Of a DNA stretch of 35,696 nucleotides, positions 6,261-24,583 are shown in pieces; position 1 is the first letter of the stretch, and each line of letters opens with the position of its first letter. Both the position numbers and the translations under genes were made by a program. The stretch lies in contig QYQC01000086.1 in NCBI GenBank assembly GCA_007280315.1, positions 1-35,696 of the forward strand, given 5' to 3'. This DNA is from Betaproteobacteria bacterium (GTDB lineage Bacteria; Pseudomonadota; Gammaproteobacteria; Burkholderiales; SG8-39). Below the pieces are notes generated by a model. The model was not told where the DNA came from. It saw only the letters and a program-made list of their open reading frames with translations, and searched no databases.

Positions 6261-6300
6261 CAGCGGGGGCGCGCCACTATTGCGGCGCCAGCGGTCGGAT

Positions 6301-7926
6301 TCACTGCAGCGGCCGGATGCACCAGCTGCGCCAAATGTCGCGGTAGGCCGCCTCAAGCGCGCGGGCATAGGGGCGGGCCGCGGTAAGCGATGAATCGCGC
6401 ATGCGCTCGCGCAAGCCGGCACGCAAGGCTACGAGGCGGTTGGTGTCGTGCGCCAGATCGACCGCGATGCGCACATAGTCCTCGTCGCTGAGCGCAATCA
6501 GCTCATCCAGCCCCATGCTGCCGAGTATGCTCATTCCGGCGCGCGACTGGAAAATTGCGCCGCTGCGGGTAATCACCGGCACGCCCAGCCACAGCGCTTC
6601 GCAGGTGGTGGTACCGCCGTTCATGGGGAAGGTGTCGAGCAGGATGTCGATGTCCGCGTACAGCGCCCAGAAATCCTTGGTCGGCAGGCGATCGTGCAGG
6701 CTGAAGCGCTCTGCGGCGACGCCGGCTTGCGTCAGGGCGTCGCGTATGCGCTCGCGCCCCTGCTCCGGCACGGTCGTAAGCACAATGCGCGAGCCGGGCA
6801 CCTCCCCGAGCACGCGCGCCCACAGGGCCAGCATGCGCGGCGTGACCTTGCTCGCGCCGTTCATGGAGGCGAAGGTCACGCCGCCGCTCTTCTTCGCCGG
6901 GGACGGCGATACGTCCGGCATGTCTGAGCGCGGCTGGTAACACCACATGCAGCGCGGCAGGCGTATCAGCGTTTCGCGGTAGTAGCGCTCGGTCGCGCCG
7001 GGCGGGTCGCACACGCCATCGGTAATACGGTAGTCCATGGCGCGCATGCCGGTGGTGTTGGGGTAGGCGAGATAGGTCACCTGGATCGGCGCCGGCTTGC
7101 GCGCAAAAACCAGCAGGCGATTCTCGCGCAAATGGCCGGACAGGTCGATCAGGATATCGATGCCGTGGCCGCGAATCAGCTCGGCCGCCTGATCATCGTC
7201 AAGATCGATGATGTCATGCCAGTGATCGGCATACTGCGCCAGACGCCGGGTCGCGTCGTCGACGATACGGCCGCTGTAATAGCAAAACACTTCGATCGCG
7301 GCGCCGTCGTGCTGCTCCAGCGCCGGCGTGATGAAATAGCTCAGCGCGTGTTCGCGGAAATCGGCCGACAGGTAGCCGACGCGCAGACGCCGCTCCGGAT
7401 CGCGCGAATTTGCGTGGGGCTTGGACTGCGCCAGGAACGGGTCGGCGTGGATCCGCGCCCAGGCGACATGTTCCGCATACACCTCCTCAGGGCGCACGCT
7501 TTCGAGCAAAACCAGGATGAAAATAAGATTGGCGCGGGCGGCGTGCAGCCCCGGATCGATTTCGAGCGCCTTGCGAAAGTACACGACCGCTTCTTCCGAT
7601 CGACCAGCCTGGACCAAGATGCTGCCGAGGTTGCTGTGAAACACCGCGTCGTTCGGGCGTGCTTGAATTGAGCGCTCGAAATACTCCAGGGCAAATCCAA
7701 GATCGCGAATACGGTGCCCAGTCAGCCCCATGAAATGCAGTGCATCGGCGTGTCCAGGATCGATTTCAAGCACATCCTCGAACAGCAACTGCGCCCGCAC
7801 CAGATCGTTGGCGTCGAATAGTTCGCGCCCCTCGGCCATCAGTTCCGCCGTCGTTCGTACTCGTGGTGCCGCGCTCGGGGAAGCACGTCCTATGTTACGC
7901 AGCAGCGACTTGAACAGCATTCTCAT
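6301..7926 (-). CDS. SPINDLY/OGT-like O-linked GlcNAc transferase with TPRs, 541 aa
   Basis: This is the first of four consecutive OGT-like genes downstream of pilA. Clear TPR repeats lie at about residues 30-140 (AQLLFEDVLEIDPGHADALH, ALEYFERSIQARPNDAVFHS, AVVYFRKALEIDPGLHAARA). The catalytic part begins at RLRVGYLSADFREHALSYF, then DILIDLSGHLRENRL, KPAPIQVTYLAYPNTTG, FASMNGASKVTPR and NGGTTTCEALWLGVPVIT. This is the bacterial OGT (GT41) architecture, which transfers GlcNAc from UDP-GlcNAc to Ser/Thr in characterised relatives. The start could be the ATG at 7926 or the one at 7920 (MLFKSLL, closer to the paralogs); no strong ribosome site separates them. The pilA terminator lies between this gene and pilA, so a separate promoter or read-through must serve the array. 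I could not identify a convincing promoter in 7927-8059. Confidence 0.92.
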   Translation of the reverse strand: MRMLFKSLLRNIGRASPSAAPRVRTTAELMAEGRELFDANDLVRAQLLFEDVLEIDPGHADALHFMGLTGHRIRDLGFALEYFERSIQARPNDAVFHSNLGSILVQAGRSEEAVVYFRKALEIDPGLHAARANLIFILVLLESVRPEEVYAEHVAWARIHADPFLAQSKPHANSRDPERRLRVGYLSADFREHALSYFITPALEQHDGAAIEVFCYYSGRIVDDATRRLAQYADHWHDIIDLDDDQAAELIRGHGIDILIDLSGHLRENRLLVFARKPAPIQVTYLAYPNTTGMRAMDYRITDGVCDPPGATERYYRETLIRLPRCMWCYQPRSDMPDVSPSPAKKSGGVTFASMNGASKVTPRMLALWARVLGEVPGSRIVLTTVPEQGRERIRDALTQAGVAAERFSLHDRLPTKDFWALYADIDILLDTFPMNGGTTTCEALWLGVPVITRSGAIFQSRAGMSILGSMGLDELIALSDEDYVRIAVDLAHDTNRLVALRAGLRERMRDSSLTAARPYARALEAAYRDIWRSWCIRPLQ

Positions 7927-8098: not shown

Positions 8099-8515
8099 TT
8101 AACGACAGGTCGCTGGCAGGTACTTAGACGGCGTGCCTACGCATGCCCAGGTGATCGTGCCCGTCGATGTGTTGTATGTCGGCGTCATGGTGACAGTTAC
8201 AGCCTGGCCGACACTGGTCGAACGCGTGCTTCCCGTAACCGTAACCGTGCCGGTATCGGTCACCGAAGCCGTTACGATCTTTCCGACGATCGGAATGGTC
8301 ACGCCGGCGCCGGCGCTGATGGTATTGCTCGGACCAGTTTGAAACTTCTCCGAAATACCGGTACGAACGCCGCTGGCCGCAAGCATCAGTTCCGAAACTT
8401 TGGCGCGAACGGTGTAGTCCTGATAAGCCGGCAATGCCACCGCCGCCAAAATACCGATAATCGCGACCACGATCATCAGTTCGATCAGGGTAAAACCCTT
8501 CTGGATTGATTTCAT
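8099..8515 (-). CDS. pilA: Type IV major pilin PilA (prepilin)
   Basis: The 138-aa product is a classic type IV prepilin. A short leader MKSIQKG is followed by the peptidase cut before Phe, and then [20 protein letters not shown] with the conserved Glu at mature position 5. This helix anchors in the inner membrane and packs in the pilus core. Mature length is about 131 aa, normal for a major pilin, and two C-terminal Cys (125 and 137) can close the disulfide loop. The globular half is strikingly Thr/Ser-rich: 29 of the last 79 residues are Thr or Ser, and 21 of 41 between residues 82 and 122. That would suit O-glycosylation by the adjacent transferases (inference). Translation uses a strong AAAGGAGA site 7 nt upstream of the ATG. 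Transcription fits a sigma-54 promoter, as known for pilA under PilS/PilR in Pseudomonas and relatives. Confidence 0.95.
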
Positions 8516-11226: not shown

Positions 11227-11553
11227 ATGATTTTAGAGTTTTTTTCCACGCGCAAGGTTACGGAATTTGCCAAGAGCCTGGCGCAGGACGTCGCCAAGCG
11301 CTATCCGCCTGCGATCGCCAATAATCCGGCGCAAATGGTGTCGCAAAAGCGCCTGTCCGGCATTCTCGAAGAGGCGTTTACCCGCGCTTCCGAATTCAGC
11401 CGGGAACAGGAGCTGGGCTGGTACAAGAAGGCCAAGCTGGGCAACGAATTCAAGTGGGAGCTCAAGGAAATGGGCTACGACGAAAAATTCATCGATGTCG
11501 CCACCGAAGGTCTGGTGGTCTACGTCACAAAACGCCCGTCTCCAAAAACCTGA
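11227..11553 (+). CDS. Conserved-looking small protein of unknown function, 108 aa
   Basis: I do not recognise this family. The track start at 11053 is replaced by the ATG at 11227 (MILEFFSTRKVTEF). That ATG has a GGGAGA site 4 nt upstream and lies just behind a perfect extended -10 promoter that the longer ORF would place inside its coding region. The protein is charged and mostly helical by composition (EFAKSLAQDVAKRYPPAI, ILEEAFTRASEFSREQELGW), with a short C-terminal segment GLVVYVTKR. There is no signal peptide, membrane segment or metal-binding Cys cluster, so it is likely a soluble cytoplasmic protein. It is one of only two plus-strand genes here, is monocistronic, and ends just before the palindromic element and shared terminator. 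No function can be inferred from context. Confidence 0.75.
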   Translation: MILEFFSTRKVTEFAKSLAQDVAKRYPPAIANNPAQMVSQKRLSGILEEAFTRASEFSREQELGWYKKAKLGNEFKWELKEMGYDEKFIDVATEGLVVYVTKRPSPKT

Positions 11554-11723: not shown

Positions 11724-13406
11724 TCAGGGGCAATACCCCGGAATTTTGCTCTCGTCGACGCGGTCGATCTGGTTCGCATCCAGAAACTTCTCTGCGTAGC
11801 GCAGGTATACTTTTTGCCGGATGAATACGTCGAACAGGTCCGGATCGATGTGCCCTCCCTCTTTGAATTTCCCGAGGATCTGCAGCGATTCGGTCAGCGT
11901 CTTGCCTTTCTTGTAGGGCCGGTCCCTGGCGGTGAGCGCTTCGAAAATATCGGCTATGCCCATGACTCGCGCCTGCACCGACATCTGCTCGCGCGTCAGG
12001 CCGCGCGGATAGCCCTTGCCGTCCATGCGCTCGTGATGTCCGCCGGCGTATTCTGGAACGCGCTGAAGGTGCTTGGGCCAGGGCAGCGCCTCGAGCATTT
12101 TGATCGTCGCGACAATATGGTAGTTGATGACCTCGCGCTCCTTCGACGTAAGCGTGCCGCGGGGAATGTTTAGGTTTTCGATTTCATCGTCGGTAAGAAA
12201 ATGTGCGGTATTGCCCGACTGGTCCAGCCACTTGTAGTCGGCGATCTTTCTCACGTTTGCCTGCGCCTCGGGCGGCATGAATTCCCCGCCGATATTGCAT
12301 TTGCGCAGAAACTCGCGGTCCTGGTCGAACTGGCGCAGGCGCGCGCGGTAGGTCTGTTCCAGATTATTGCTGCGTTCGCGCAGCGTCAATTCGTCCAGCC
12401 CCTGCCGCAGCAGCGCGGCACTGTCTTTCAACAGATCGATCTCGGCGTCGCGTTTGAGCACCTCGAAGCGGGTGTCGATCAGGTGAACACGATCGAAGAT
12501 CGACTCCAGCTTGGTTGCCTTGTCCACCACGTGCACCGGGGTCGTAACCTTGCCGCAATCGTGCAGCAGGCCCGCGATCTTCAACTCATAGCGGTCCTTG
12601 TCGCTCATATCGAAATCCATGAGCGGACCCTGCTTGGTCTCGTTCACCGCTTCGGCAAGCAGCATCGTAAGCTCGGGCACACGCTGACAATGTCCGCCGG
12701 TATAAGGGGATTTTTCGTCGATCGCCGAATTGATCATGGCGATGAACGATTCGAACAGCGCCTCCAGCTGGTTTATCAACTGCCGATTGGTGAGCGCAAT
12801 CGCGGCCTGCGAGGCAAGCGATTCCGCCAAGCGCTGGTCCGGATCGGAAAACGCCACGACCTCGCCGCTCACCGAATCCTGGGAGTTGATCAACTGAAGA
12901 ACGCCGATGATCTCGTTCTCGTGATTCTTCATCGGCACGGTGAGAAAGGATTTCGAACGATAGCCGGTCTTTTTGTCGAAGCTGCGCGTGCCGGTGAAGT
13001 CGAAGCCTTCCGCGGTATACGCATCGGCGATATTGACGGTCTGCCCGGTCAGTGCCGCAAACGCAGCCACCATCTGGTTGTTGGGCTGGCCATCCTTGCC
13101 GTACAAGTGAATCGGATAGAACGGTATGGGCGTTCCGGTGGTTCCGCCCATGGCGATATTGAGCGACTGCGTGCGCATGATCTCGAATTTCAGCCGCTTG
13201 GAGCCGTCTTCTTCAGTCAGCAGATACAGCGTGCCGCCGTCGGCGCGGGTGATTGTCTTGGCCGCGAGCAGGATGCTTTCCAGCAGCCGGTTGATGTCCC
13301 GTTCGGCCGACAGCGACGCGCCAATCGCGTTCAGCTGCTCCAGGCGCCGGAACATGTCTTCCACCGTCTGGACCGCCATCGTCTGCCCGCTGTGTTCCGC
13401 CTCCAC
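11724..13406 (-). CDS. GAF-HD-GYP cyclic-di-GMP phosphodiesterase
   Basis: The 560-aa protein has an N-terminal GAF domain (about residues 15-210; KTGYRSKSFLTVPM, EIIGVLQLINSQDS) and a C-terminal HD-GYP domain. Catalytic features are complete: H282-D283 in LLHDCGK, and H457-H458-E459-RM-D462-GKGYP. HD-GYP enzymes hydrolyse c-di-GMP to pGpG or GMP, so it should lower c-di-GMP in response to a ligand or partner at the GAF domain. A roughly 110-aa insertion between the HD part and the GYP motif (DRVHLIDTRFEVLKRD onward) is longer than in minimal HD-GYP domains. The start is a GTG at 13406 with AGGA 8 nt upstream; the ATG at 13379 (MAVQTVEDM) is the alternative. It is the last gene of the signalling array, 32 nt after the GAF-PilB gene. 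It is soluble, with no membrane segments. Confidence 0.93.
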   Translation of the reverse strand: MEAEHSGQTMAVQTVEDMFRRLEQLNAIGASLSAERDINRLLESILLAAKTITRADGGTLYLLTEEDGSKRLKFEIMRTQSLNIAMGGTTGTPIPFYPIHLYGKDGQPNNQMVAAFAALTGQTVNIADAYTAEGFDFTGTRSFDKKTGYRSKSFLTVPMKNHENEIIGVLQLINSQDSVSGEVVAFSDPDQRLAESLASQAAIALTNRQLINQLEALFESFIAMINSAIDEKSPYTGGHCQRVPELTMLLAEAVNETKQGPLMDFDMSDKDRYELKIAGLLHDCGKVTTPVHVVDKATKLESIFDRVHLIDTRFEVLKRDAEIDLLKDSAALLRQGLDELTLRERSNNLEQTYRARLRQFDQDREFLRKCNIGGEFMPPEAQANVRKIADYKWLDQSGNTAHFLTDDEIENLNIPRGTLTSKEREVINYHIVATIKMLEALPWPKHLQRVPEYAGGHHERMDGKGYPRGLTREQMSVQARVMGIADIFEALTARDRPYKKGKTLTESLQILGKFKEGGHIDPDLFDVFIRQKVYLRYAEKFLDANQIDRVDESKIPGYCP

Positions 13407-13438: not shown

Positions 13439-15814
13439 CTACTTGATGCAAACCGCGCGCACTGTCGGCATGTCGGTAAGTCCCATCAGGACTTTTTCCA
13501 TACCGTCCATTTTCAGCGTGCGCATGCCTTCGTTCAGGCAGCAGGCCAGCATCTCCGCCACGCGCGCGTGCTCCTGGATCAGCTTTTTCAGCGGATCGGT
13601 GCCGACCAGCAGCTCGTGCAGGCCGACCCGGCCCTTGTAGCCGCTTCCGCCGCAGGTGTCGCAGCCGATCTTCTTGTACATGGTGAACTGCCCCTTGTCG
13701 TTGGCGTAGTCCTTGACCCATTCCTTGTACACGTTCTCGTAGCCCTCCTTGGGATTCTGCTTGAATGTCAAGGTATTCGTCAGCTCGCTGCAGTATTCGG
13801 TGAGGAAGGCTTTCATTTCCTCCCCGGCGGGGTTGTACGCCTGTTTGCACTTGGCGCACAGGCGCTTCGCCAGGCGCTGCGCGAGAATGCCGAGCAAGGC
13901 GTCGGAGAAGTTGAACGGATCCATGCCCATGTCGAGCAGACGGATGATCGATTCCGTCGCGCTGTTGGTGTGCAGAGTGGCGAATACCAGGTGACCGGTG
14001 AGCGAAGCCTCGATGCCGGTTCCCACGGTTTCCTTGTCGCGCATCTCGCCCACCATGATGATGTCTGGATCGGCGCGCAGGAACGCCTTCATCACCATGG
14101 CGAAGTCCAGCCCGGCCTTCTTGTTCACCTGTACCTGGCGCAATCCCTTCTGGGTGATTTCGACCGGGTCCTCGGCGGTCCAGATCTTGGTGTCCGGCGT
14201 ATTCAGGTGTTTCAGCACTGAGTGCAGCGTCGTGGTCTTGCCCGATCCGGTCGGCCCGCAGACAAAGAACAGCCCATAGGGCTTGCTCACGACCACCTTC
14301 AGCGTCTCCAGGTTGTGCGGAGTAAGTCCGAGCTTTTCGAGCGGAATCGGCTCGCCCGCGGCAAGAATACGCATGACGATGTCTTCGACACCGCCCTGCG
14401 TCGGTATGGTGGCTACCCGCAGTTCGATGTCCAGCGGTCCGAACTTCTTGAACTTGATCTTGCCGTCCTGCGGCCTGCGCTTCTCTGAAATATCCAGATC
14501 GCACATGATCTTGACCCGGGCAACGATCGCGTTTCGATAGGAAGCAGGTATCTCGATGTAGGGCGCCAGCGATCCGTCCTTGCGAAAGCGGATCTCGGTC
14601 TTGCCCTTGCCCGGATAGGACTCGACATGGATGTCGGAGGCGCCCTGGTTGTATGCGTCGATGACGATTTTGTTCACGAGCTTCACCAACTCGTTATCGG
14701 CCGCCTGCGACAGATCGTCGCCAGCACTCTCGCCGCCCGCGGCGTCGTCCTGATCGTCCAGTCCGGAGAGCATGTCGCCGATATCGCCGGTGTCGAGCAC
14801 TTCGGCGCCGTAGAATATGTTCAGCGTTTCCTTGAACTCGCGCTGGGTGGTCACGCGGTAGATCAGCTTGCTCTTTGGAAACACATTCTGCACGATGCGC
14901 GAACTTTTTACCCGCTCCGGATCGAGGCACAGCACGATCAAGCCGTCCTTGCCGTCGTCAATCGGCACCCACTGATTCTGTTCGACGTACTCCCGTTTCA
15001 GGTTCTTCAGCAGATCCGGCGGCTTGATGCGGTCCGCCTTGTGCGGCTCATAGGGCACACCGAAAAATTTCGAAAGGGCCTGGCCGATGGCGGGCAACTT
15101 GACCTGAAATTCCTCCACCAGCACCTGCTCCACATCCACCGCTTTCTTGCGCGCCGAACGCGCCGCCAGATCGAACTCGGCCGGAGAAATCACCGCGTCG
15201 CTGACCAGGAAATCGTATTTGGTCTTGATAATCTGGGGTTTTTGCCGCTGCCTGAAAGCAATCGCCAGGGTCTGCGCCAGCTGGGTCACGCCCTCTTCCA
15301 TCAGCGCGGTAAACGGTACACCGGCCTTGTTGTTGATAATCTGGATCACGCCGATCAACTCGTCGCCGTCCAGCACCGGCGCGGCCAGCACCTGTTTGGT
15401 GCGATAGCCGGTGCGTTTGTCCACTTCCTGCAGGAATCGCAGGTTGGGATTGATCGCCTTCAGTTCCGATTCGTCGTAGCAGTCCTTGATGTTGATCATC
15501 TTCTTGGAGAAGGCGACATAGCCGCCCATCGAATGCTCGGCGATCGGCAGCTTCAGGTCCTTGAACGAATTCAGCCCGGTCTTGACCTTGGATACGATCG
15601 ACTGCTTGTCTTCGCCGACGATGTAAATGGTGAGGCGGTCGGCGTTGAACAGGCTGCAGATGTCGGACGATACCTCGAGCATGATCTCGTCGATATTGGA
15701 GGTCGCGTGAATCTTGTTGGTGACGTTCTGCAGGTTCTTCGAGAACATCAGCCTGGCGTTGACGTCAGCCGACCCGGTGGCCGCAGCCGGTGGTGTATTC
15801 AGCACTGCACTCAT
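13439..15814 (-). CDS. GAF domain fused to a PilB/GspE-type assembly ATPase
   Basis: The 791-aa protein is a type II/type IV pilus assembly ATPase with an added N-terminal GAF domain. GAF covers about residues 30-195 (KRTGYRTKQVLAAPV, ELIGVIQIINNKAG), a GspE/MshE N-terminal type domain about 205-345, and the ATPase core about 375-760. Walker A is GPTGSGKT (520-527), the Walker B region is DPDIIMVGEMRD, and the His box is TGHLVFATLHTNSA. The zinc-type pairs CAKC and CDTC flank an unusually long spacer. Such ATPases are cytoplasmic hexamers that drive pilin extraction and pilus growth or type II secretion. No pilC, pilD or secretin genes are here, so it may serve pili encoded elsewhere, including the nearby pilA. 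It starts at an ATG with GAGG 5 nt upstream, behind a terminator-like hairpin and a REP-like hairpin, so it may have its own promoter. Confidence 0.93.
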   Translation of the reverse strand: MSAVLNTPPAAATGSADVNARLMFSKNLQNVTNKIHATSNIDEIMLEVSSDICSLFNADRLTIYIVGEDKQSIVSKVKTGLNSFKDLKLPIAEHSMGGYVAFSKKMINIKDCYDESELKAINPNLRFLQEVDKRTGYRTKQVLAAPVLDGDELIGVIQIINNKAGVPFTALMEEGVTQLAQTLAIAFRQRQKPQIIKTKYDFLVSDAVISPAEFDLAARSARKKAVDVEQVLVEEFQVKLPAIGQALSKFFGVPYEPHKADRIKPPDLLKNLKREYVEQNQWVPIDDGKDGLIVLCLDPERVKSSRIVQNVFPKSKLIYRVTTQREFKETLNIFYGAEVLDTGDIGDMLSGLDDQDDAAGGESAGDDLSQAADNELVKLVNKIVIDAYNQGASDIHVESYPGKGKTEIRFRKDGSLAPYIEIPASYRNAIVARVKIMCDLDISEKRRPQDGKIKFKKFGPLDIELRVATIPTQGGVEDIVMRILAAGEPIPLEKLGLTPHNLETLKVVVSKPYGLFFVCGPTGSGKTTTLHSVLKHLNTPDTKIWTAEDPVEITQKGLRQVQVNKKAGLDFAMVMKAFLRADPDIIMVGEMRDKETVGTGIEASLTGHLVFATLHTNSATESIIRLLDMGMDPFNFSDALLGILAQRLAKRLCAKCKQAYNPAGEEMKAFLTEYCSELTNTLTFKQNPKEGYENVYKEWVKDYANDKGQFTMYKKIGCDTCGGSGYKGRVGLHELLVGTDPLKKLIQEHARVAEMLACCLNEGMRTLKMDGMEKVLMGLTDMPTVRAVCIK

Positions 15815-15961: not shown

Positions 15962-17032
15962 TCACGCCGCTCGATCCCCGCCCCACAACCCGCCTTCAAG
16001 CACGAAAACGTGATAGCCGCGCTGCGCCAGCAGGAAAGCGGCAGCCGAACTGCGCCTGCCGCTCTGGCAGTAGACGATATATTCCTCGCCGATATCCAGT
16101 GCACCGAAGGCGTTGCGGATTTCTGACAAAGGAATATTGCGCGCACATGGCAGGCAGTCGTGCTGGTATTCGGATGGATAGCGCACATCTATCCAGTGCG
16201 CGCCGTTCAAAGTTTTCTGTTTTGCCTGCTCCATGTTGATCGCGTGCAGCAAGGGTTCGCGCAGCAGCATGTTGAAATCCTCCCGCCTCAGCCGCAACAG
16301 GCTGCCCGGCGTCTTCATCGTGACAGTGGCGTTACGCGTCGCATCCGACACCAGCGCCTCCTCGCCGAAAGTGTCGCCGCTCTTCAACTCGGCCAGCGTC
16401 ATATTGACGCCGCCTACCCTGCGCTCCACCTGGCACCTTCCCGACTCCACCAGGTAGTAATAATCGCCCTCCGCGCCTTCGCTGATGATCACGTCGCCGG
16501 ATCCCGCTTCGATGCGCTCGAAGCGCTGCAATAGTTCGCCGATATGCGCCGGTGGCAATTCGGAAAAGGCGCCGAAGCGCAGGCTGTTGATGCCGAGCAG
16601 GCCCGTGGTGACGCCCCAGTTGGCTCCAGGCGTTGACGCTGACGCGGGCGGCTCCATGCCGGGCTGATTCTGCATTGCCACCTGATCCCAGGTAAGCATG
16701 ACATCCAGCAGATCGTCGTCGATGCGCAGTAGCCGCAGGTCGGTCACCGCCTTGGCTGCGCCAAAACCACGCCGCTTGCCCAAAGGATGGCGCGCATCTG
16801 CGGACCCTCCGACGATGACCTCGGAGCTGCCCTCGCCATAGGTGAGGGCCAGCTCGCCGCTCAGCAGGTACACCGACTGACCCGCGATCGAACCCGGGCC
16901 AAACGGCTCAGCAGCGCGGCGCACAGGCTCGATGGAGCACAGCTTGGCGAGTTCCTTCAGCCGGGCGCCGGAAAGCGACGACAGCGGATCGAGCATACCC
17001 AAAGCTTCCACGCTGATTCTTGTGACTGCCAT
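15962..17032 (-). CDS. Cyclic-nucleotide-binding protein with C-terminal rhodanese domain
   Basis: The start is taken at the ATG at 17032 (MAVTRISVEALGML), 37 nt after the preceding stop; the track ORF overlaps the upstream gene. Length is 356 aa. A degenerate cNMP-like fold fills about residues 20-140 and a good cNMP-binding domain about 185-300. The second has the phosphate-binding cassette FGEEALVSDATRNATV, keeping the Glu and Arg that bind the ring phosphate and ribose in CRP-type domains. A single rhodanese domain follows (WIDVRYPSEYQHDCLP, VYCQSGRRSS) with a candidate catalytic Cys at 322. There is no helix-turn-helix, so it is not a transcription factor. It is probably a cytoplasmic cAMP-controlled sulfurtransferase or redox/persulfide sensor. 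The adenylate cyclase and a putative cAMP phosphodiesterase are directly upstream, which supports cAMP as ligand (inference). Confidence 0.88.
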   Translation of the reverse strand: MAVTRISVEALGMLDPLSSLSGARLKELAKLCSIEPVRRAAEPFGPGSIAGQSVYLLSGELALTYGEGSSEVIVGGSADARHPLGKRRGFGAAKAVTDLRLLRIDDDLLDVMLTWDQVAMQNQPGMEPPASASTPGANWGVTTGLLGINSLRFGAFSELPPAHIGELLQRFERIEAGSGDVIISEGAEGDYYYLVESGRCQVERRVGGVNMTLAELKSGDTFGEEALVSDATRNATVTMKTPGSLLRLRREDFNMLLREPLLHAINMEQAKQKTLNGAHWIDVRYPSEYQHDCLPCARNIPLSEIRNAFGALDIGEEYIVYCQSGRRSSAAAFLLAQRGYHVFVLEGGLWGGDRAA

Positions 17033-17069: not shown

Positions 17070-17837
17070 CTAGAACTCGAAAACCTGGTTGTTCTGCAGC
17101 ATGCGCGGTTTGTACTGTCCGGCACAATCCTCAATTTCCTGCATCGTCAGTTCGATCTCACCCGGTTTCAGATGGGTGATGAAAATCTCCGCATCGCGCT
17201 CGAGTTTTACCAGCTCCTCAGCAAGCAGGCTCGGGCAAAAATGCTTGGCTGTTATCGCAAGTTCCCGCTCGCGGTTGCAGAAGGCAGTCTCGATAATCAA
17301 GTAGCGCAAATTGGCAATCTTGTTGACTTCCTTCCACAACGGATCGTGTGTCGTGGTGTCGCCTGTAAACACCAGGCTGGCGTCGCCCGAATCGATCTGG
17401 AAGCCCACTGCAGGCACCACATGGTTTGCCGGCAGCGACGTAATTTTTCGCCCTTTCAGCTCCACCGTCTTGCCGAGCTCCAATACCTCGTAACGCATGA
17501 ACGGCTTGCTCGGTGTGGGAATTTGCGTGAAGTCCGGCCAAATGCTCCAGTTGAAAATATGGTTGCGGATGATCTCCAGCGTCGGCTCGGTCGCGTGCAC
17601 GGTGAGCGGCTTGTTGCGCATGCCGCCGACGGTGTCGACCAGGAACGGTATGGAGCAAATATGATCCAGGTGCGAATGCGTGACGAATATGTGGTCGATC
17701 AGCATCAGCTCCGCCAGCGATACGTCGCCGACCCCGGTACCGGCGTCGATCAGGATGTCATTGTCGACGAGCATCGACGTGGTGCGCAGATGCCGTCCGC
17801 CGATTCCGCCGCTGCAACCGAGGATTCTCAGCTTCAT
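17070..17837 (-). CDS. Metallo-beta-lactamase-fold hydrolase, likely class II cyclic-nucleotide phosphodiesterase
   Basis: The 255-aa protein begins directly with the fold (MKLRILGCSGGIGG). It has the dinuclear-metal motif THSHLDH (H54, H56, D58, H59), then TGDTTTHD, and ends with IFITHLKPGEIE. The THxHLDH motif followed by an Ile-rich segment, plus the late FITHxKPGE strand, resembles class II 3',5'-cAMP phosphodiesterases (yeast PDE1, Vibrio CpdP) more than beta-lactamases or glyoxalases. RNase Z-like proteins share part of this pattern, so the specificity is not certain. It is cytoplasmic, with no signal peptide. It lies 12 nt downstream of the adenylate cyclase and 37 nt upstream of the cNMP-binding protein, which makes a cAMP-degrading role attractive. 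Confidence 0.8.
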   Translation of the reverse strand: MKLRILGCSGGIGGRHLRTTSMLVDNDILIDAGTGVGDVSLAELMLIDHIFVTHSHLDHICSIPFLVDTVGGMRNKPLTVHATEPTLEIIRNHIFNWSIWPDFTQIPTPSKPFMRYEVLELGKTVELKGRKITSLPANHVVPAVGFQIDSGDASLVFTGDTTTHDPLWKEVNKIANLRYLIIETAFCNRERELAITAKHFCPSLLAEELVKLERDAEIFITHLKPGEIELTMQEIEDCAGQYKPRMLQNNQVFEF

Positions 17838-17849
17838 CGCGCGCGTCGG

Positions 17850-20072
17850 CTACTTGGTCTTGAAGGTCGTTACGCCGTCCCAATCCGCAGGGGGCGGTTC
17901 GATACGGCACTGGGCAATACGCTCGAAGTACATCTGGTAGAGCACGGAATCCGGTGACATGCGCTGCACATTCAGCAGATTCATCTCCGCCTCGTCCCAG
18001 TTCTGCGCACGATAGGCTTTGAGCGCTTTGTGCCACAGCTTGATTTCATCCTTGATCTTTTGATCGACCTCGCTATCGACGCCGATCGGCTCGAAGATCG
18101 CCACCGGTTCGTCCTTGCCTTTGACCTTCACCCGATCGAGTTCGCGAAACACGATATCCTTTACCGCCACTTTCGTATTCGGGCCGACGATAACCCCGAC
18201 GCCGTAGATCCGGGTCAGGCCCTCCAGCCGCGATCCGAGATTGACTGCGTCGCCCATCACCGTGTAGGCCTTGCGCAGCTTGGAGCCCATATCGCCGACG
18301 CTCATGCTGCCGGTATTGACGCCGACGCCGATGCGTATGTCAGGCCAGCCGCGCTCCAGCATCTTTGCGCGCAAGTTGTCGAGTTCACGCTGCATTGCCA
18401 TGGCGCTGATCACCCCCTGGCGCGCATGCTCGGGATCGGCCACCGGCGCGCCCCAGAAAGCCATGATGGCATCGCCGATATACTTGTCGAGGGTGCCGCG
18501 GTGGTTACGGATCACCAGACTCATCGCGGTAAGGTAATCGTTGATGAACTGCGACAGATCCTTTGGTGACAGGCTTTCGGAGATCGAAGTAAACCCGACG
18601 ATATCGGAGAACAGTACAGTAAGTTCCTCGCTCTTGCCTTCCATGCTGTAGCGCTGCGGATCCTTCGCCATTTCATCGACCAATTCCGGCGGCACATACT
18701 GACCAAACAGCTCGGTGAACTGACGTTTGCTGCGCGATTCGACGAAGTAACCCCAGGACATGTTGAACGCAAACAAGGCAGCAATCATCAGCAGACTGGA
18801 TGCAAGGGGCAGAATGATGCCGCCCTTGGTCCACAGCGCAACGTCGAGGCCGGTAATGAGCGCCGTCGCCAGCAGAGACGCCAGAGTGGCCTTGAACGGA
18901 CTCAGCAGCGGCACCAGCAACGACAGCGCGACGCCGCCGATCAGCAGCAGCACTACCTCGGTGCCGAGGATGTAGGCGGGTTTGTGCTTGAAATTGTTAT
19001 CCAGCATTGAGGCGATCATGTTGGCGTGGATTTCCACACCGGGGAACACGCTGCCCACCGGCGTGGATCGCAGGTCGAGCAGACCCGGCGCGGTGGTGCC
19101 GATCAGCGCGATCTTGCCGCGCAGTTCATCCTTGGGTACTTTCCCGAAATACACGTCGGCAAGCGAAACGTACTTGAAGCTGCCGCGTGTGCCGCGGTAA
19201 GGAATGAACGCGCTCACGGTATCATCGACCGGAATGGTTACCGGCCCCACTTTCAGCCATTCCAGCCCGGAGTAACCGTCACTGGTGGGTTTCTCGGACG
19301 AAAATCCCGGCTCCACCTTGGGGTAGTTCGCCAGCACCCGGATGACCGCAAGCGAAAGCGCTTCGTAGTAGTCGCCGTTGTATTCGGCGAGTATCGGTAC
19401 CCGCCGCGACACACCGTCGTTATCTACCAGCGGATTGAAGTGCCCTGCGTTGGCAGCGTTGGCCTGGAATTCCGGCAAATTGGCGCCATAGCCGCGCCAG
19501 TGGGTGAATCGGATATTCCTGCCCTGGAACGCGCCTTTTTCCAGCACCGGCTTGGGTAGTGCGCCCGAGCGCACGGCGTTTTCGTCGCTGTTGAAATAGT
19601 ATCCGAGTACGACGGGTCGTCCTTTGATCGTCTCTGCCATGATGCGGTCGTAGTCGAGTTCCGGCCGCAATTCCTTGAGCGCCGATTGAAACGAGCCCAC
19701 ATCCCTGAGCTTGCCCTTGGCGAGCTTCTCGAGCACCGGCAGTCCCGAGCCTTCGTCGGGTTCCGCGAACACGATGTCGAAGCCGGCGATGACTATGCCG
19801 TATTCATCGAAAAGCTTCTTCAGCAGGGCGGAGAACTTGTCGCGGCGCCAGGGCCAGTGCCCGAGCGCGGTCTTGTCCACGCTGCGCTCGTCGATATCGA
19901 GGATGACGATTCGCGGGTCCACACCACCGGGCATGGTGAGAGCGAGCCGCGTGTCGTAGATTATGTTGTCGAGCCGGGTGATGAGCCCGATATTGAACAG
20001 TTCGGCTACATGGCCGACGAACACCAGCATCAAAGCAAGGCTAAGGACGATCCTGACGATATGCTTTTTCAA
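17850..20072 (-). CDS. CHASE2-domain membrane adenylate cyclase (class III)
   Basis: The product is 740 aa. The layout is an N-terminal membrane helix (about 5-25), a periplasmic CHASE2 sensor (about 30-355; IVILDIDERSVDKTALGHW), three membrane helices (about 362-445) and a cytoplasmic class III cyclase domain (about 480-665). Metal Asp residues are D490 (FSDIVGF) and D534 (DKYIGDAIM). K530 is the purine-specifying Lys of adenylate cyclases, and N611 and R615 are the transition-state residues. The second specificity position is Thr (T604), the pattern of class IIIb enzymes, some of which are stimulated by bicarbonate. A short TPR-like tail follows. The start is TTG with a strong AAAGGAGA site; no better ATG is nearby. 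It should make cAMP from ATP in response to a periplasmic cue. The phosphodiesterase-like gene starts 12 nt after its stop. Confidence 0.93.
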   Translation of the reverse strand: MKKHIVRIVLSLALMLVFVGHVAELFNIGLITRLDNIIYDTRLALTMPGGVDPRIVILDIDERSVDKTALGHWPWRRDKFSALLKKLFDEYGIVIAGFDIVFAEPDEGSGLPVLEKLAKGKLRDVGSFQSALKELRPELDYDRIMAETIKGRPVVLGYYFNSDENAVRSGALPKPVLEKGAFQGRNIRFTHWRGYGANLPEFQANAANAGHFNPLVDNDGVSRRVPILAEYNGDYYEALSLAVIRVLANYPKVEPGFSSEKPTSDGYSGLEWLKVGPVTIPVDDTVSAFIPYRGTRGSFKYVSLADVYFGKVPKDELRGKIALIGTTAPGLLDLRSTPVGSVFPGVEIHANMIASMLDNNFKHKPAYILGTEVVLLLIGGVALSLLVPLLSPFKATLASLLATALITGLDVALWTKGGIILPLASSLLMIAALFAFNMSWGYFVESRSKRQFTELFGQYVPPELVDEMAKDPQRYSMEGKSEELTVLFSDIVGFTSISESLSPKDLSQFINDYLTAMSLVIRNHRGTLDKYIGDAIMAFWGAPVADPEHARQGVISAMAMQRELDNLRAKMLERGWPDIRIGVGVNTGSMSVGDMGSKLRKAYTVMGDAVNLGSRLEGLTRIYGVGVIVGPNTKVAVKDIVFRELDRVKVKGKDEPVAIFEPIGVDSEVDQKIKDEIKLWHKALKAYRAQNWDEAEMNLLNVQRMSPDSVLYQMYFERIAQCRIEPPPADWDGVTTFKTK

Positions 20073-20103: not shown

Positions 20104-20940
20104 TCAGCGTTTGAAGAAAAATTCCACCTTCACACCGGCAAGCTCGATGACGTCGTGGTCATTGAGCGCATGCGCCTGCTGCTCTATCGGTTTGCCGTTG
20201 ACAATGGGCTTGTTGGCGCCTTCAACGTGGGTGATGAAAAAGCCCTGTGGCCGGCGGGTGATGACCGCGACCTGCACGCCGGGCTTGCCCAGAGTGGTCA
20301 GCGGCTTGGTCAGTTCGAGTTCCTTGCCGGCATTGCCGCCGGACATGAGCTTCAGCATGGCGTGCCGAGCCGGAGCGGCAGGGGCAGGGGCAGGAGACGG
20401 CGCATGAGTCGGCGTCGGCACTGACGCCGGAGTGGATGCAGAAACACCCACAGATGCGGCGGTTATGCCGACCTGGGTGGCGGCATGCGATCTGGCGGCC
20501 GCGTCAGCTGGAGGCGTTGCCGCTGCCGCGCCCGCGGGCGCGGTCTCGACGTGGGCCGGTGCCGGGGCAGCTGGCGCAGGGGGCTTTCGCATCGCGCCGG
20601 GGCGGAGAATCATGGTCTTCTCGAAGTCGGCGGCCTTGACGGCGCCTGGCTGCGCTTCGGCCATGTACTTGAGCTTGTACTTGCCCAGTTCGATTACATC
20701 GTTATTCTGCAGAAAATGTTTCTTTACCGTTTTGCCGTTGACGAATGTGCCGTTGGTGCTGCCCAGATCCTCGAGGAACGAATCCGCGAGTATGGTCACA
20801 ATTACAGCGTGCTCGCCGCTGACGGCCAGATTGTCGATCTGGATATCATTGTGCGGTTTGCGCCCGATGGTGGTGCGCTCCTTGGAAAGCTGAATTTCCT
20901 TGAGCACCAGACCGTCCATACTGAGTATTAGCTTCGCCAT
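20104..20940 (-). CDS. Double FHA-domain protein with Ala/Pro-rich linker
   Basis: The 278-aa protein has a canonical N-terminal FHA domain (about 5-95) with IGR (26-27), S41, H44 and STNG (61-64), the residues that hold phosphothreonine. An Ala/Pro-rich flexible linker (about 116-195) leads to a C-terminal FHA-like domain (about 197-276) that has lost most phosphothreonine contacts (TLGKPGVQVAV, VNGKPI). Just after the first FHA domain is FEKTMILRPG. A Thr in such a short acidic/hydrophobic context resembles the phospho-acceptor of GarA-type FHA regulators, so T109 could be phosphorylated by the adjacent kinase and bound by an FHA domain (inference). It is cytoplasmic and lies between the PP2C phosphatase (15-nt gap) and the cyclase (31-nt gap), so it may carry the kinase signal to cyclase or motor. 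Confidence 0.9.
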   Translation of the reverse strand: MAKLILSMDGLVLKEIQLSKERTTIGRKPHNDIQIDNLAVSGEHAVIVTILADSFLEDLGSTNGTFVNGKTVKKHFLQNNDVIELGKYKLKYMAEAQPGAVKAADFEKTMILRPGAMRKPPAPAAPAPAHVETAPAGAAAATPPADAAARSHAATQVGITAASVGVSASTPASVPTPTHAPSPAPAPAAPARHAMLKLMSGGNAGKELELTKPLTTLGKPGVQVAVITRRPQGFFITHVEGANKPIVNGKPIEQQAHALNDHDVIELAGVKVEFFFKR

Positions 20941-20955: not shown

Positions 20956-21780
20956 CTATCTAAACCATCCGAAAATTTTCTTTGCCAAACCCTGTCCGGC
21001 CGGGTAATCACGCAGAATCTTCACCAATACCACCGATACGTTGTCGCGCCCGCCGTTGTCGTTCGCCATCTGCACCAGCTGTTGCACTGCCAGATTCAGA
21101 TTGGCGCCCAGGGCCTGCAGCGCCATGCCGATATCTTCATCGCTCACCATATCCGAGAGCCCGTCGGAGCAGAGCAAATAGATATCGCCCGGCTGCGTGT
21201 CGTATTCGTGAATCTCCGGCTCCACCGCCGGATCGATGCCCATTGCCCGCGTCACCAGATTCTTGTTCGACGAGCCCTTCGCCTGCTCCTTGGTCAGCAT
21301 GCCGGCATCGATCTGCTCCTGCAGCAACGAATGGTCCTTGCTCACCTGGCTGAATTCGTCGCCGCGCATACGGTACAGGCGCGAATCGCCGATATGCGCC
21401 ACCATCACCTTGTTATCGTAAAACAGCGCCACTACCAGCGTCGTGCCCATGCCGGCGTACTGAGGTTGACTCTGCGCGGCCTGGAATATCGACGAATTGG
21501 CCTTGGCAATCTGCTGCTGCAGCATTTTCGCCGCAGCCTTCTGTCCGCTTTGCGGGTCAACCTCATGCGGTGCGTGCTCCTCAAGCATCTGCCGCAATTC
21601 GGTGGTAAGCACCGTTGTGGCCATACCGCTTGCCACTTCACCCGCATTGTAGCCCCCCATGCCGTCTGCCAGCACCACCAGGCCGTGTTCCGGGACCGAA
21701 GCGATCGAGTCCTCGTTGTTTGAGCGCACCATCCCGGGGTCGGTATGGCTGGCCACTTCCAGGGCTTGGCTCAGGTCCAT
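20956..21780 (-). CDS. PP2C-family Ser/Thr protein phosphatase
   Basis: The 274-aa protein covers a complete PP2C domain. Metal and phosphate motifs in order are VRSNNEDS (E23, D24), VLADGMGG (D39-G40), AGMGTTLVVAL, HIGDSRLYR, LLCSDGLSD and GGRDNVSVVLV. This is the set found in PstP/Stp-type bacterial phosphatases, Mn/Mg-dependent enzymes that reverse Ser/Thr kinases. There is no membrane segment, unlike PstP of actinobacteria. Twelve nt separate it from the upstream kinase gene and 15 nt from the FHA gene, the usual kinase-phosphatase-FHA grouping. It probably removes phosphate from the kinase, the FHA protein and other targets of the array. The ATG at 21780 follows directly on the kinase stop. 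Confidence 0.94.
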   Translation of the reverse strand: MDLSQALEVASHTDPGMVRSNNEDSIASVPEHGLVVLADGMGGYNAGEVASGMATTVLTTELRQMLEEHAPHEVDPQSGQKAAAKMLQQQIAKANSSIFQAAQSQPQYAGMGTTLVVALFYDNKVMVAHIGDSRLYRMRGDEFSQVSKDHSLLQEQIDAGMLTKEQAKGSSNKNLVTRAMGIDPAVEPEIHEYDTQPGDIYLLCSDGLSDMVSDEDIGMALQALGANLNLAVQQLVQMANDNGGRDNVSVVLVKILRDYPAGQGLAKKIFGWFR

Positions 21781-21792
21781 GCGGCGGGCTTC

Positions 21793-24405
21793 CTAGGCTC
21801 CGGCATCCGTGCCGACACCGCCGACCGGTGCCGCACCGGCAGCGAACGCCGCGCGCAGCGCTGCGGCGAATTCTTCTCCGGTCTGGTAGCGATCCTCCGC
21901 CTCCTTGGCCATCGCCTTGTCAAGGAACGCCACCAGCGCTGGCGGTATTCCCGGCCGGACCAGGAAGATTTCGGCCGCCGGTTCGTTGGCAATCTTGAAC
22001 ATCAGCTGCGCCATTGAATCTCCGACGAAAGGCAACGCGCCGCAAAGCATCTGGTACAGGCTCACCGCCAGCGAAAACAGGTCGCTGCGTCCGTCCACCT
22101 TCTTGCCCGAGAGCTGCTCTGGCGACATATAGGATGGCGTGCCCAGCACCATGCCCGTTTTGGTCTTGGAGGAATCGGTTATGCGCGCAATGCCGAAGTC
22201 GGTGACCTTGGGCGCGTCGCTTTCCGGCTCGTACATGATGTTCGCCGGCTTGATATCGCGATGAACGATGTTCTGCTTGTGCGCGTAGCCGAGCGCATCG
22301 GCGACGCGCGCGATGATCGACACAACCTTGTCCATCGGCAGCAGGTTGTCCGGTTTGGTAAACGGGATCAGGTCCTTGCCTTTGAGCAGTTCCATTGCGA
22401 TATAGCACAGGTCGTGCTCCTCACCCGCATCGTAAATGGTGACGATATTGGGGTGCGACAACCGCCCTGCGGTCTCCGCCTCGCGAAAGAATCGCTCCTT
22501 CACCTCGACCAGCTCCTCCGCCTCGAACTCCTGCGACAACGCCATGGTTTTGATCGCCACCACGCGGCCGATCTTCGGGTCCTTGCCCTGGTAGACCACG
22601 CCCATCGCGCCCTTGCCCAGCTCTTTTTCCACCTGGTAGCGGCCGAGCATGGGCTTTTCCGCGCCCGCGCCCAGCGACATGGAGCCGCCGGGATGGCTGG
22701 ACGCCCCGCCAAGGACTATCGTCTCCGACATCGCCCTGGCGCGATTCAGCCGCGACTCCAGGTCGCGGAACTTCGGATTGTGATTGGCCATGTACTGAAA
22801 CACGTTTTCCGCCTTGTTGAACTGGCGTTTGCGCTCGAAATCGAGCGCCAGGTTGTACAGGTTGTCCATTACGCCATCATCCAGCGGCACCTTGCGGAAC
22901 TTGTCCCACGCCATGTCGAGCTGGCCCTGCCCCTGAAACGCGAGCCCGAGCATGCGGTTGGACTCGGCCGAATCGGCGTCAGACTTGACCTTGCCCGCTT
23001 CGGTGAGGACGAAGCGTTTGGTCACCAGCAGTACATGGCCGATAACCAGCAGCACCAGCGGCAGCATCAGTTGCAGCCACATCGCACTGGTGGTCATGAG
23101 CACGAAGTGTGTAATCAGCAGCAATCCGATCAGCGCCGCGGTAATCATCGCGCCCATGCCGGCTTTTAGCCGCGGCAGGATTCCGATCAGATAAGCGGCG
23201 ATGAGTACGAATACCAGAAGCTCAACCCAGTAGCCCCAGATCGGCGCGACGAAAAAATGCTCGGATAGAATCGAGGACACCGAATGCGCGAGCACCAGCA
23301 CCGGCGGCATCGCGGGCGACACCGGCGTGATGGCCGCGCTGCCCAGGCCAGGAGCAGTGGGCCCGATCAGAACTATCTTGTCCTGATATTTGCTCACCGG
23401 GATTTTGCCGCTGATGACGTCGTAGAACGAATCGACCGGGAACGCGGGCCGCCCGTCTCGATCCTTGTAGAAATAGGCGTACATCCGCGTAAACGGATCG
23501 GTGACTATGTTGAGCCGTCCCAGCGATACCTTCTCACCTGGCTGGACTTTGATGTCGCCCACGCCGAGGTTGAGACTGCGAGCTGCGACCATCATCGACA
23601 GCGACGGATAGATCTGCCCGAAATAATCCAGCACCAGCGACTCGGCGCGGGTGCCGCCGTCCACATCGGGCGTCGAGTTGAGGTATCCGAGCGCGGCCGA
23701 GGCCTTGCCCAGGATTTCAATCGGATAATCGATTTTACGCGTCGGCAATATCGAGTCGTCAGTCACTTTGACGGCTTTGGGCAGACTGTTCCTAGCTACA
23801 AACTCAGGCAGAGGCTTGTCCGGTTTCCCCAGCGCGGCACCGAGGTCGAACAATGTCATTGGCACCACGTTACCCGCATGCGCAAAGCTTTCGGAAAGCC
23901 TGCGGTCGGTGTTGAGCTTTTGCTCTGCCTCCTTCAGCAGCGCGATGAACTGCGCGAGTTCGCCCGTCACCGGCGCCGCCGCGGGCGCTGTCACGGGCGC
24001 AATCGGCGCCTGCGCCGCGTCCGCGGGCACAACCGCTGCCGGTGCGCCCGCCCCGGTCAGGTCGAGCAGCTTGGTGACGTAGGTGTAGCCCGGGTCGGTC
24101 TGAGGCTCGGAGAACAACACGGTATAGGCGATGACTTTCGCCTTCGCCGCCGCCAGGCTATCGGTGAGTTTCGCCAATACCTCGCGTGACCAGGGCCAGC
24201 GGCCAAGGTTGGCCAAGCTCTGCTCGTCGATGGCGATAACTGCGATCTTGTCGAGCGGGGTGCGCGATGTCGCGATTACGCCCAGGTCATAGGCCTTGCG
24301 CTCGAGACTGGGAACAAGATCGCTGGCACGTGCGAACAGGGCGACGCAAACGACCACGGCGACGCCGAGAAACCAGTCGGTCTTCCAAAAACCCGCTTTC
24401 GTCAT
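21793..24405 (-). CDS. CHASE2-domain transmembrane Ser/Thr protein kinase
   Basis: The start is set at the ATG at 24405 (MTKAGFWKTDWFLG) with GAGGA upstream; the track ORF adds 38 unlikely residues. Length is 870 aa. One membrane helix (about 11-28), a periplasmic CHASE2 domain (about 30-380; VIAIDEQSLANLGRWPW) with an Ala/Pro-rich insertion, and three membrane helices (about 385-465) are followed by a short TPR-like segment and a PknB-type kinase domain (about 590-850). Kinase residues are intact: GKGAMG loop, K619 (VAIK), HRDIKPAN (H715, D717), D736 in DFG, and SPEQ in place of APE. The kinase signals on cytoplasmic Ser/Thr in response to a periplasmic cue. It shares its CHASE2 plus three-helix layout with the cyclase of the same operon, so the two may read the same cue. 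It is the first gene of the array. Confidence 0.94.
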   Translation of the reverse strand: MTKAGFWKTDWFLGVAVVVCVALFARASDLVPSLERKAYDLGVIATSRTPLDKIAVIAIDEQSLANLGRWPWSREVLAKLTDSLAAAKAKVIAYTVLFSEPQTDPGYTYVTKLLDLTGAGAPAAVVPADAAQAPIAPVTAPAAAPVTGELAQFIALLKEAEQKLNTDRRLSESFAHAGNVVPMTLFDLGAALGKPDKPLPEFVARNSLPKAVKVTDDSILPTRKIDYPIEILGKASAALGYLNSTPDVDGGTRAESLVLDYFGQIYPSLSMMVAARSLNLGVGDIKVQPGEKVSLGRLNIVTDPFTRMYAYFYKDRDGRPAFPVDSFYDVISGKIPVSKYQDKIVLIGPTAPGLGSAAITPVSPAMPPVLVLAHSVSSILSEHFFVAPIWGYWVELLVFVLIAAYLIGILPRLKAGMGAMITAALIGLLLITHFVLMTTSAMWLQLMLPLVLLVIGHVLLVTKRFVLTEAGKVKSDADSAESNRMLGLAFQGQGQLDMAWDKFRKVPLDDGVMDNLYNLALDFERKRQFNKAENVFQYMANHNPKFRDLESRLNRARAMSETIVLGGASSHPGGSMSLGAGAEKPMLGRYQVEKELGKGAMGVVYQGKDPKIGRVVAIKTMALSQEFEAEELVEVKERFFREAETAGRLSHPNIVTIYDAGEEHDLCYIAMELLKGKDLIPFTKPDNLLPMDKVVSIIARVADALGYAHKQNIVHRDIKPANIMYEPESDAPKVTDFGIARITDSSKTKTGMVLGTPSYMSPEQLSGKKVDGRSDLFSLAVSLYQMLCGALPFVGDSMAQLMFKIANEPAAEIFLVRPGIPPALVAFLDKAMAKEAEDRYQTGEEFAAALRAAFAAGAAPVGGVGTDAGA

Positions 24406-24583
24406 TCCCGGTCCTCTGCGTCCCTGATCTACTTCCGCCAACGCCCGGCTATCTGCCGAATAGCGAAGGCATTTTACGACATTAGCCCCGGCGCCAGTGC
24501 TACTCGAACCGGAGCGCACGGATCATGCCGAGAGGCGTCCCGAAGCGCTGCCGGCTGCGACCCGGAACCTTCTTCTGTACAGA

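Follow-up and report, generated by a model that had tools for sequence, protein, structure and literature searches.

A GAF-domain relative of PilB as a probable type IVa pilus extension motor in Betaproteobacteria

The ATPase PilB is commonly regarded as the conserved and obligatory extension motor of type IVa pili (T4aP). A second extension motor, TfpB, is proven for Acinetobacter baylyi, and a genome with tfpB only is already known from Pseudomonas fluorescens A506, which lacks pilB (PMC8213720). Control of such motors by second messengers is represented by MshE and several PilB proteins, which bind c-di-GMP via their MshEN domains (PMC5013675, PMC11656802). The corresponding motif consists of two 24-residue stretches of the pattern RLGxx(L)(V)xxG(L)(V)xxxxLxxxLxxQ, and a GspE protein of Xanthomonas with several altered key residues does not bind c-di-GMP (PMC5013675). 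In P. aeruginosa, cAMP affects the pili through transcription, using the regulator Vfr (PMC11656802).

We analyzed a stretch of 35,696 nucleotides from a betaproteobacterial genome (contig QYQC01000086.1 of assembly GCA_007280315.1), referred to as the window, which contains a gene for a motor protein with an unusual N-terminus, termed here GAF-PilB (Table 1). The sequence-only reading had proposed an extra GAF domain ahead of a PilB/GspE-type ATPase, and the Pfam domains, the open reading frame and the orthologs all confirm this. The protein consists of a GAF domain, a degenerate MshEN domain and an intact PilB/GspE-type ATPase. The latter contains the motifs RRPQDGK (residue 446), GPTGSGKTT as Walker A (residue 520), ADPDIIMVGEMRD (residue 581) and TGHLVFATLHT (residue 606) as well as two CxxC pairs (residues 653 and 718), and the motif set appears complete. 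Its Walker A, Asp box, Walker B and His box together with the T2SSE domain place it in the T2SSE/PilT-VirB11 secretion ATPase superfamily. An AlphaFold model based on 48 orthologs reached pLDDT values of about 80–93 for the GAF and MshEN domains and was poor for the ATPase. Fold searches matched the motor part with PilF, PilB and GspE, and the N-terminus with the GAF domains of an HD-GYP protein, PDE10, CyaB2 and PDE6.

Table 1. Features of the GAF-PilB locus in the window, with the evidence for each assignment
Feature	Position	Strand	Evidence
GAF-PilB (GAF-MshEN-T2SSE ATPase)	13439..15814	minus	uninterrupted ORF, ATG start, 791 aa
GAF domain of GAF-PilB	residues 41-186, about 15257-15694	minus	Pfam E 4.5e-12, above gathering score
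MshEN domain of GAF-PilB	residues 251-338, about 14801-15064	minus	Pfam E 1.6e-7, above gathering score
T2SSE ATPase of GAF-PilB	residues 371-784	minus	Pfam E 1.6e-111, above gathering score
GAF-HD-GYP protein, putative c-di-GMP phosphodiesterase	11724..13406	minus	Pfam GAF 1e-13, HD_5 8.5e-41; HD and GYP motifs present
cNMP-binding domain fused to rhodanese	15962..17032	minus	Pfam cNMP_binding 1.6e-18, Rhodanese 1.9e-13
Metallo-beta-lactamase-fold hydrolase, putative class II cAMP phosphodiesterase	17070..17837	minus	HxHLDH motif; Pfam Lactamase_B_2 1.3e-15, PDEase_II 4.7e-12, both above cut-off
CHASE2 - class III adenylate cyclase	17850..20072	minus	Pfam CHASE2 2.8e-52, Guanylate_cyc 1.2e-21
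FHA-domain protein	20104..20940	minus	Pfam FHA 5.4e-25
PP2C-type Ser/Thr phosphatase (Stp1 family)	20956..21780	minus	NCBIfam NF033484 above cut-off
CHASE2 - Ser/Thr protein kinase	21793..24519	minus	Pfam Pkinase 5.7e-54, CHASE2 8.6e-49; GKGAMGVV, HRDIKPAN, DFG motifs
Type IVa major-pilin-like gene, downstream of GAF-PilB	8099..8515	minus	N-methylation motif; Pfam Pilin 2.2e-13, N_methyl 3.2e-10
Conserved gene, function not assigned	11227-11553	plus	108 aa
Three adjacent TPR + glycosyltransferase family 41 (O-GlcNAc-transferase-like) genes	1144-7926		G+C 0.65-0.67 vs about 0.60

The protein resembles PilB (TIGR02538) in its domain order of N1 (MshEN), N2 and ATPase, its Walker, Asp-box, His-box and tetra-Cys motifs and its inferred use of PilC, but it carries a GAF domain in front, forms a separate clade, is encoded in a signalling cluster instead of a pilBCD locus, and its presence goes along with the absence of PilB. 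Assignments as PilB, GspE or TfpB were ruled out by the curated NCBIfam cut-offs. GAF-PilB scored 464.3 bits on the PilB equivalog model (cut-off 675.65), compared to 856 bits for a true PilB used as control (L189), 438.8 bits on the GspE model TIGR02533 (cut-off 630.25), and 381.5 bits on the TfpB model NF053534 (cut-off 850), on which real TfpB genes of relatives reached about 868–933 bits. The gene context gave no support for GspE either, because the gspE gene of the same genome adjoins gspD and gspF on other contigs. Nor is GAF-PilB encoded in a pilBCD locus, its neighbours being kinase, phosphatase and cyclase genes. In a tree of the ATPase cores, all GAF-PilB proteins formed a single clade (support 100/99). 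It fell within a broader group (100/100) that also comprised paralogs containing multiple MshEN repeats and no GAF domain, while canonical PilB stood apart (100/100); long branches restrict the reading of the deeper joins. Judged from these comparisons, GAF-PilB represents a clade of its own which is neither PilB nor GspE nor TfpB.

About 70 of 100 relatives contained full-length orthologs with 57–97% identity, and the GAF domain was present in all 48 of the orthologs that were aligned, so the architecture does not represent a chance fusion. Further orthologs occur in Azospira, Gallionella, Sideroxydans, Nitrosomonas, Chitinimonas, Undibacterium, Massilia, Janthinobacterium, Accumulibacter and others, and the GAF-MshEN-ATPase architecture is conserved across the Betaproteobacteria. 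It is not unique to the window, because distant homologs were also detected in 8 of 273 other genomes of a class-wide sample. These proteins from other Gammaproteobacteria (L270–L277) share the architecture, a length of about 770 amino acids and recognisable homology, but are only 25–31% identical over the GAF-MshEN part, often end their GAF domain with N-R..F...D and are mostly encoded outside such a gene cluster. Our literature search, with subscription journals outside its range, yielded no paper describing the GAF-PilB family or its gene cluster and no studied member; Azoarcus BH72 has its own pilB2C genes.

The distribution of PilB itself provided the main result. Only 29 of the 100 relatives contained a PilB above the curated cut-off, whereas PilQ exceeded its cut-off in 84. 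The genes around pilD are arranged in the order corB-pilB-pilC-pilD-coaE-zapD, and pilB directly preceded pilC in all 20 added pilB-containing genomes, although corB or the far end of the locus was not recognised in a few of them. Among 19 genomes containing GAF-PilB without PilB, 16 showed pilC in place but no pilB, including the source genome of the window, whose pilC and pilD genes are located on contig C189. One further case is uninformative, since the contig ends inside pilC (L177 of genome G031). The remaining two have kept a sequence at this place: genome G061 has retained a pilB relic directly upstream of pilC (L179, about 5876-6325), comprising only the last ~150 codons without a Walker A motif, and genome G094 contains a chimera at the pilB position (L188:3174-5003, minus strand), which combines a canonical PilB N-domain with a motor domain of the GAF-PilB type. 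Its N-terminal 162 amino acids share 56% identity with PilB. The C-terminal 415 amino acids match the GAF-PilB of the same genome at 81% identity, but PilB at only 41%; in the tree of ATPase cores, it fell into the GAF-PilB clade.

The isolates Nitrosomonas sp. Nm51, N. oligotropha Nm45 and Sulfurisoma sediminicola likewise lack PilB and contain pilC-pilD without pilB. Genome G073, which is complete, encodes no extension-type ATPases besides GAF-PilB and a T2SS GspE with GspF- and GspG-like genes next to it. Other ATPases of the source genome were also considered as a hidden PilB and rejected: those on contigs C60 and C50 are GspE, that on C250 is a GspE-type tail, and that on C74 is PilT/PilU-like. 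An assembly gap as the reason for the missing pilB was ruled out by the contiguous neighbours and the matching isolates. We therefore regard it as highly improbable that GAF-PilB is just an ordinary accessory GspE/PilB paralog and the pilB losses are assembly gaps. Most of the genomes are indeed metagenome-assembled and not phylogenetically independent, and that of the window is only 89% complete, but pilB is missing in the middle of contigs between retained neighbours, one complete genome and several isolates included, always in the presence of GAF-PilB, and the orthologs are 57–97% identical across the order.

A tree of PilC-PilD-CoaE-ZapD, constructed by a quick method, required 11 changes by parsimony to explain the absence of pilB, at least three of which are forced by supported branches, indicating that pilB was lost in several events. 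Because all 22 pilB-less loci in this tree come from genomes picked for carrying GAF-PilB, the fair test of an association is a cross-tabulation, which we based on 54 PilQ-containing genomes of at least 95% completeness. PilB was absent from 31 of these; GAF-PilB was present in 29 of the 31, but in only 10 of the 23 genomes with PilB (Fisher p=1e-4, relatedness ignored).

The role of GAF-PilB needs to be weighed against that of TfpB, since a conserved orphan ATPase of 600–680 amino acids in the relatives turned out to be TfpB by its NF053534 scores, which weakens GAF-PilB as the sole candidate motor in most genomes. TfpB resembles GAF-PilB in being a phylogenetically distinct T4aP extension motor, but the TfpB genes of this sample lack a GAF domain and are separate genes alongside that for GAF-PilB in most of these genomes. 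Among the 54 genomes, 26 contained GAF-PilB and TfpB without PilB, three GAF-PilB alone, ten all three proteins, nine PilB alone, four PilB and TfpB, and two none of them. It might be argued that TfpB powers extension wherever PilB is missing, leaving GAF-PilB to drive a minor pilus, a secretion or adhesion filament, or something else. The presence of TfpB in 26 of the 29 genomes with GAF-PilB and without PilB would agree with this, as would its proven function in A. baylyi and the pilB-less P. fluorescens A506. We nevertheless consider it unlikely, because the absence of PilB tracks GAF-PilB better than TfpB (p=0.07 for the weak association with TfpB in the same 54 genomes, relatedness ignored) and none of these genomes contained TfpB as the sole motor. 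Moreover, PilB and TfpB are both missing from genomes G073, G074 and G094 and from the two Nitrosomonas isolates, all of which have kept PilC and PilD, and the chimera of G094 carries the motor domain of GAF-PilB at the pilB locus beside pilC. GAF-PilB and TfpB were found together much more frequently than expected (p=4e-6, n=54, uncorrected for relatedness). In a single genome (G082, L227:8242-12403), tfpB adjoins a gene for a class III cyclase.

Based on the repeated loss of pilB, the relic, the chimera and the lack of both PilB and TfpB in the Nitrosomonas isolates, GAF-PilB is probably a T4aP extension motor that displaced PilB, and we consider its participation in pilus extension to be the most secure part of this proposal and quite likely. 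The occurrence of a pilin gene near that of GAF-PilB in 33 of 65 loci (see below) supports this role. By analogy, the data fit a scheme in which GAF-PilB fills the part of PilB in a two-motor system resembling that of PilB and TfpB in A. baylyi, and they also fit GAF-PilB alone being sufficient in Nitrosomonas-like genomes.

The genes surrounding that of GAF-PilB form a signalling cluster. They are arranged on one strand in the order of transcription CHASE2-kinase, PP2C, FHA, CHASE2-cyclase, PDEase_II/metallo-beta-lactamase-fold hydrolase, cNMP-binding-rhodanese protein, GAF-PilB and GAF-HD-GYP protein, separated by only 12–32 bp through most of the cluster and by 147 bp ahead of GAF-PilB. The open reading frame of the cNMP-binding-rhodanese protein opens at 17134, and its likely start is the ATG at 17032; this fusion is unusual and was present in less than one third of the loci. 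The gene order is kept in most of 40 GAF-PilB loci. Among 65 further loci with sufficient upstream sequence, the neighbours were found with decreasing frequency from the hydrolase (57), the cyclase and the HD-GYP protein (50 each), PP2C and FHA proteins (49 each) and the kinase (43) to the pilin (33) and the cNMP-binding protein (19). In Oxalobacteraceae, the genes for the cyclase, the HD-GYP protein and the hydrolase have remained next to that of GAF-PilB with changed orientations, and the Nitrosomonas loci have retained the hydrolase and lack the cyclase and cNMP-binding genes. Matches to class III cyclases numbered 0–13 per tested genome, with at least one in every GAF-PilB genome tested.

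The cyclase has its metal Asp, Lys, Thr and Asn/Arg residues in place, of which we take the Asp to be metal-binding and the Lys and Thr to be adenine-selecting. The structure of yeast PDE1 was among the weak matches of the hydrolase (1.4e-5). The earlier suggestion that the neighbours make or destroy cyclic nucleotides is therefore well in line with the predicted functions of the CHASE2 class III cyclase, the hydrolase, the cNMP-binding protein and the GAF-HD-GYP protein, with the breakdown being the probable rather than the certain part. The window has two further features of note: the 108-aa gene faces it and is found beside the GAF-HD-GYP gene in several relatives, and the TPR-glycosyltransferase genes are located just downstream of the pilin gene and are possibly involved in pilin glycosylation.

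Two second messengers were considered as potential effectors of the motor. GAF-PilB shares with MshE and related motors an MshEN domain ahead of the ATPase and, in principle, second-messenger control of a pilus motor, but differs by having a GAF domain at the sensor position and lacking the c-di-GMP-binding residues. We looked for the c-di-GMP-binding motif in the MshEN region, as had been suggested, and did not find it: the R and G of RLG and the Q were present in none of the 48 orthologs in either half-motif, leaving mostly the hydrophobic positions. The MshEN-type N1 domain therefore appears to have kept its fold and lost its c-di-GMP site, and c-di-GMP sensing through it, which we rejected on these residue counts, is very unlikely. 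Gating of the motor by c-di-GMP via MshEN, with the neighbouring GAF-HD-GYP protein as its phosphodiesterase, would agree with the adjacent HD-GYP gene in 50 of 65 loci and with the binding of c-di-GMP by MshE and several PilB proteins, but has hardly any probability left in view of these counts and of the Xanthomonas GspE, which does not bind c-di-GMP with changed key residues (PMC5013675). The nearest paralogs (L078–L087) and a further one (L089) contain an unclassified N-terminal domain as well as multiple MshEN-like repeats before a closely related ATPase; some of these repeats retain the RLG...Q residues, and the proteins may be c-di-GMP-gated counterparts of GAF-PilB.

The GAF domain is related to those binding cyclic nucleotides (CyaB1/CyaB2 and PDE2/5/6/10/11). 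Among solved structures, these are its nearest relatives in sequence and belong to the nearest in fold, and the residues aligned with their ligand pocket are conserved. A profile search against solved structures returned the tandem GAF of CyaB2 as the best match (9.7e-36), followed by PDE5 (3e-18) and the HD-GYP protein 4mcw (5e-17), while the fold search did not separate cyclic-nucleotide GAFs from those of HD-GYP proteins and PtsP. The pocket-aligned residues R60, T62, T135 and Q158 were invariant in the 48 orthologs, as were G136 and the D..TG positions; R60 and T62 align with R291 and T293 of CyaB2. The positions of R291, T135/T139 and Q158 are presumably ligand contacts, as in CyaB2 and PDE2. 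In the GAF-B domain of CyaB2, T293 matters for cGMP rather than cAMP, and I308 matters for cAMP (PMC4411481); the latter aligns with V77 of GAF-PilB, which is V in 43 of the 48 orthologs.

The sequence-only reading had likened the segment NNKAGVPF and its acidic tail to the NKFDE motif. This holds for N and F (48/48 each) and mostly for E (39/48), but fails for K and D (0/48 each). Because all five residues are needed for cGMP binding by the GAF-B domain of PDE2 (PMC11977230), and K and D are missing in every ortholog, we dropped the motif as support for cyclic nucleotide binding. GAF-PilB further differs from the known cyclic-nucleotide GAF proteins in that its GAF is linked to a pilus motor, and theirs to cyclases or phosphodiesterases. 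The likeness to this subfamily is no proof of cyclic nucleotide binding, because the GAFs of the phosphodiesterases match hardly better than that of the HD-GYP protein 4mcw. It is thus quite conceivable, if somewhat doubtful, that GAF-PilB is a pilus motor whose GAF senses another ligand or only serves in dimerisation or docking, e.g., to the FHA or cNMP-binding proteins, with cAMP acting via the separate cNMP-binding protein. The missing K and D, the nearly equal match of 4mcw and the presence of that separate protein in the operon all speak for this, while CyaB2 as by far the best solved match, the invariant pocket-aligned residues and the occurrence of the cNMP-binding gene in only 19 of 65 loci, compared to a GAF in every aligned ortholog, argue against it. 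Because the GAF of CyaB2 is the closest solved relative and the cyclase and putative cAMP phosphodiesterase are constant neighbours, cAMP represents our best guess for the ligand of GAF-PilB, which we propose tentatively and with slightly less than even confidence.

In the proposed mechanism, GAF-PilB would act on the ordinary T4aP machine of PilC, PilD, PilQ and PilT/PilU encoded elsewhere in the genome, and its GAF domain, a relative of the GAFs with which adenylate cyclases of cyanobacteria bind cAMP, would allow a small molecule to switch the hexamer. The CHASE2 cyclase would produce cAMP, whose binding to the GAF domain would alter the activity of the hexamer until the PDEase_II-like hydrolase removes it and ends the signal, and the kinase, PP2C and FHA proteins would provide a phosphorylation input. 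As a whole, we regard it as rather probable that GAF-PilB represents a third, distinct class of T4aP extension motors, which is in the place of PilB in many Betaproteobacteria and switched by a small molecule. The more specific version, in which this third class displaced PilB several times and is gated directly by cAMP from the enzymes of its own operon, is possible but clearly doubtful.

What makes the GAF-PilB family notable is less the GAF domain alone than its repeated substitution for PilB, and the natural chimera and the pilB relic provide an evolutionary series usable in experiments. If the proposal is true, annotation pipelines relying on PilB overlook a motor across the Betaproteobacteria, including Nitrosomonas, and the control of pilus extension would be rewirable by swapping the N-terminal sensor of the motor. 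In that case, cAMP may act allosterically on the motor itself, rather than the control running via c-di-GMP or via transcription by Vfr/CRP.
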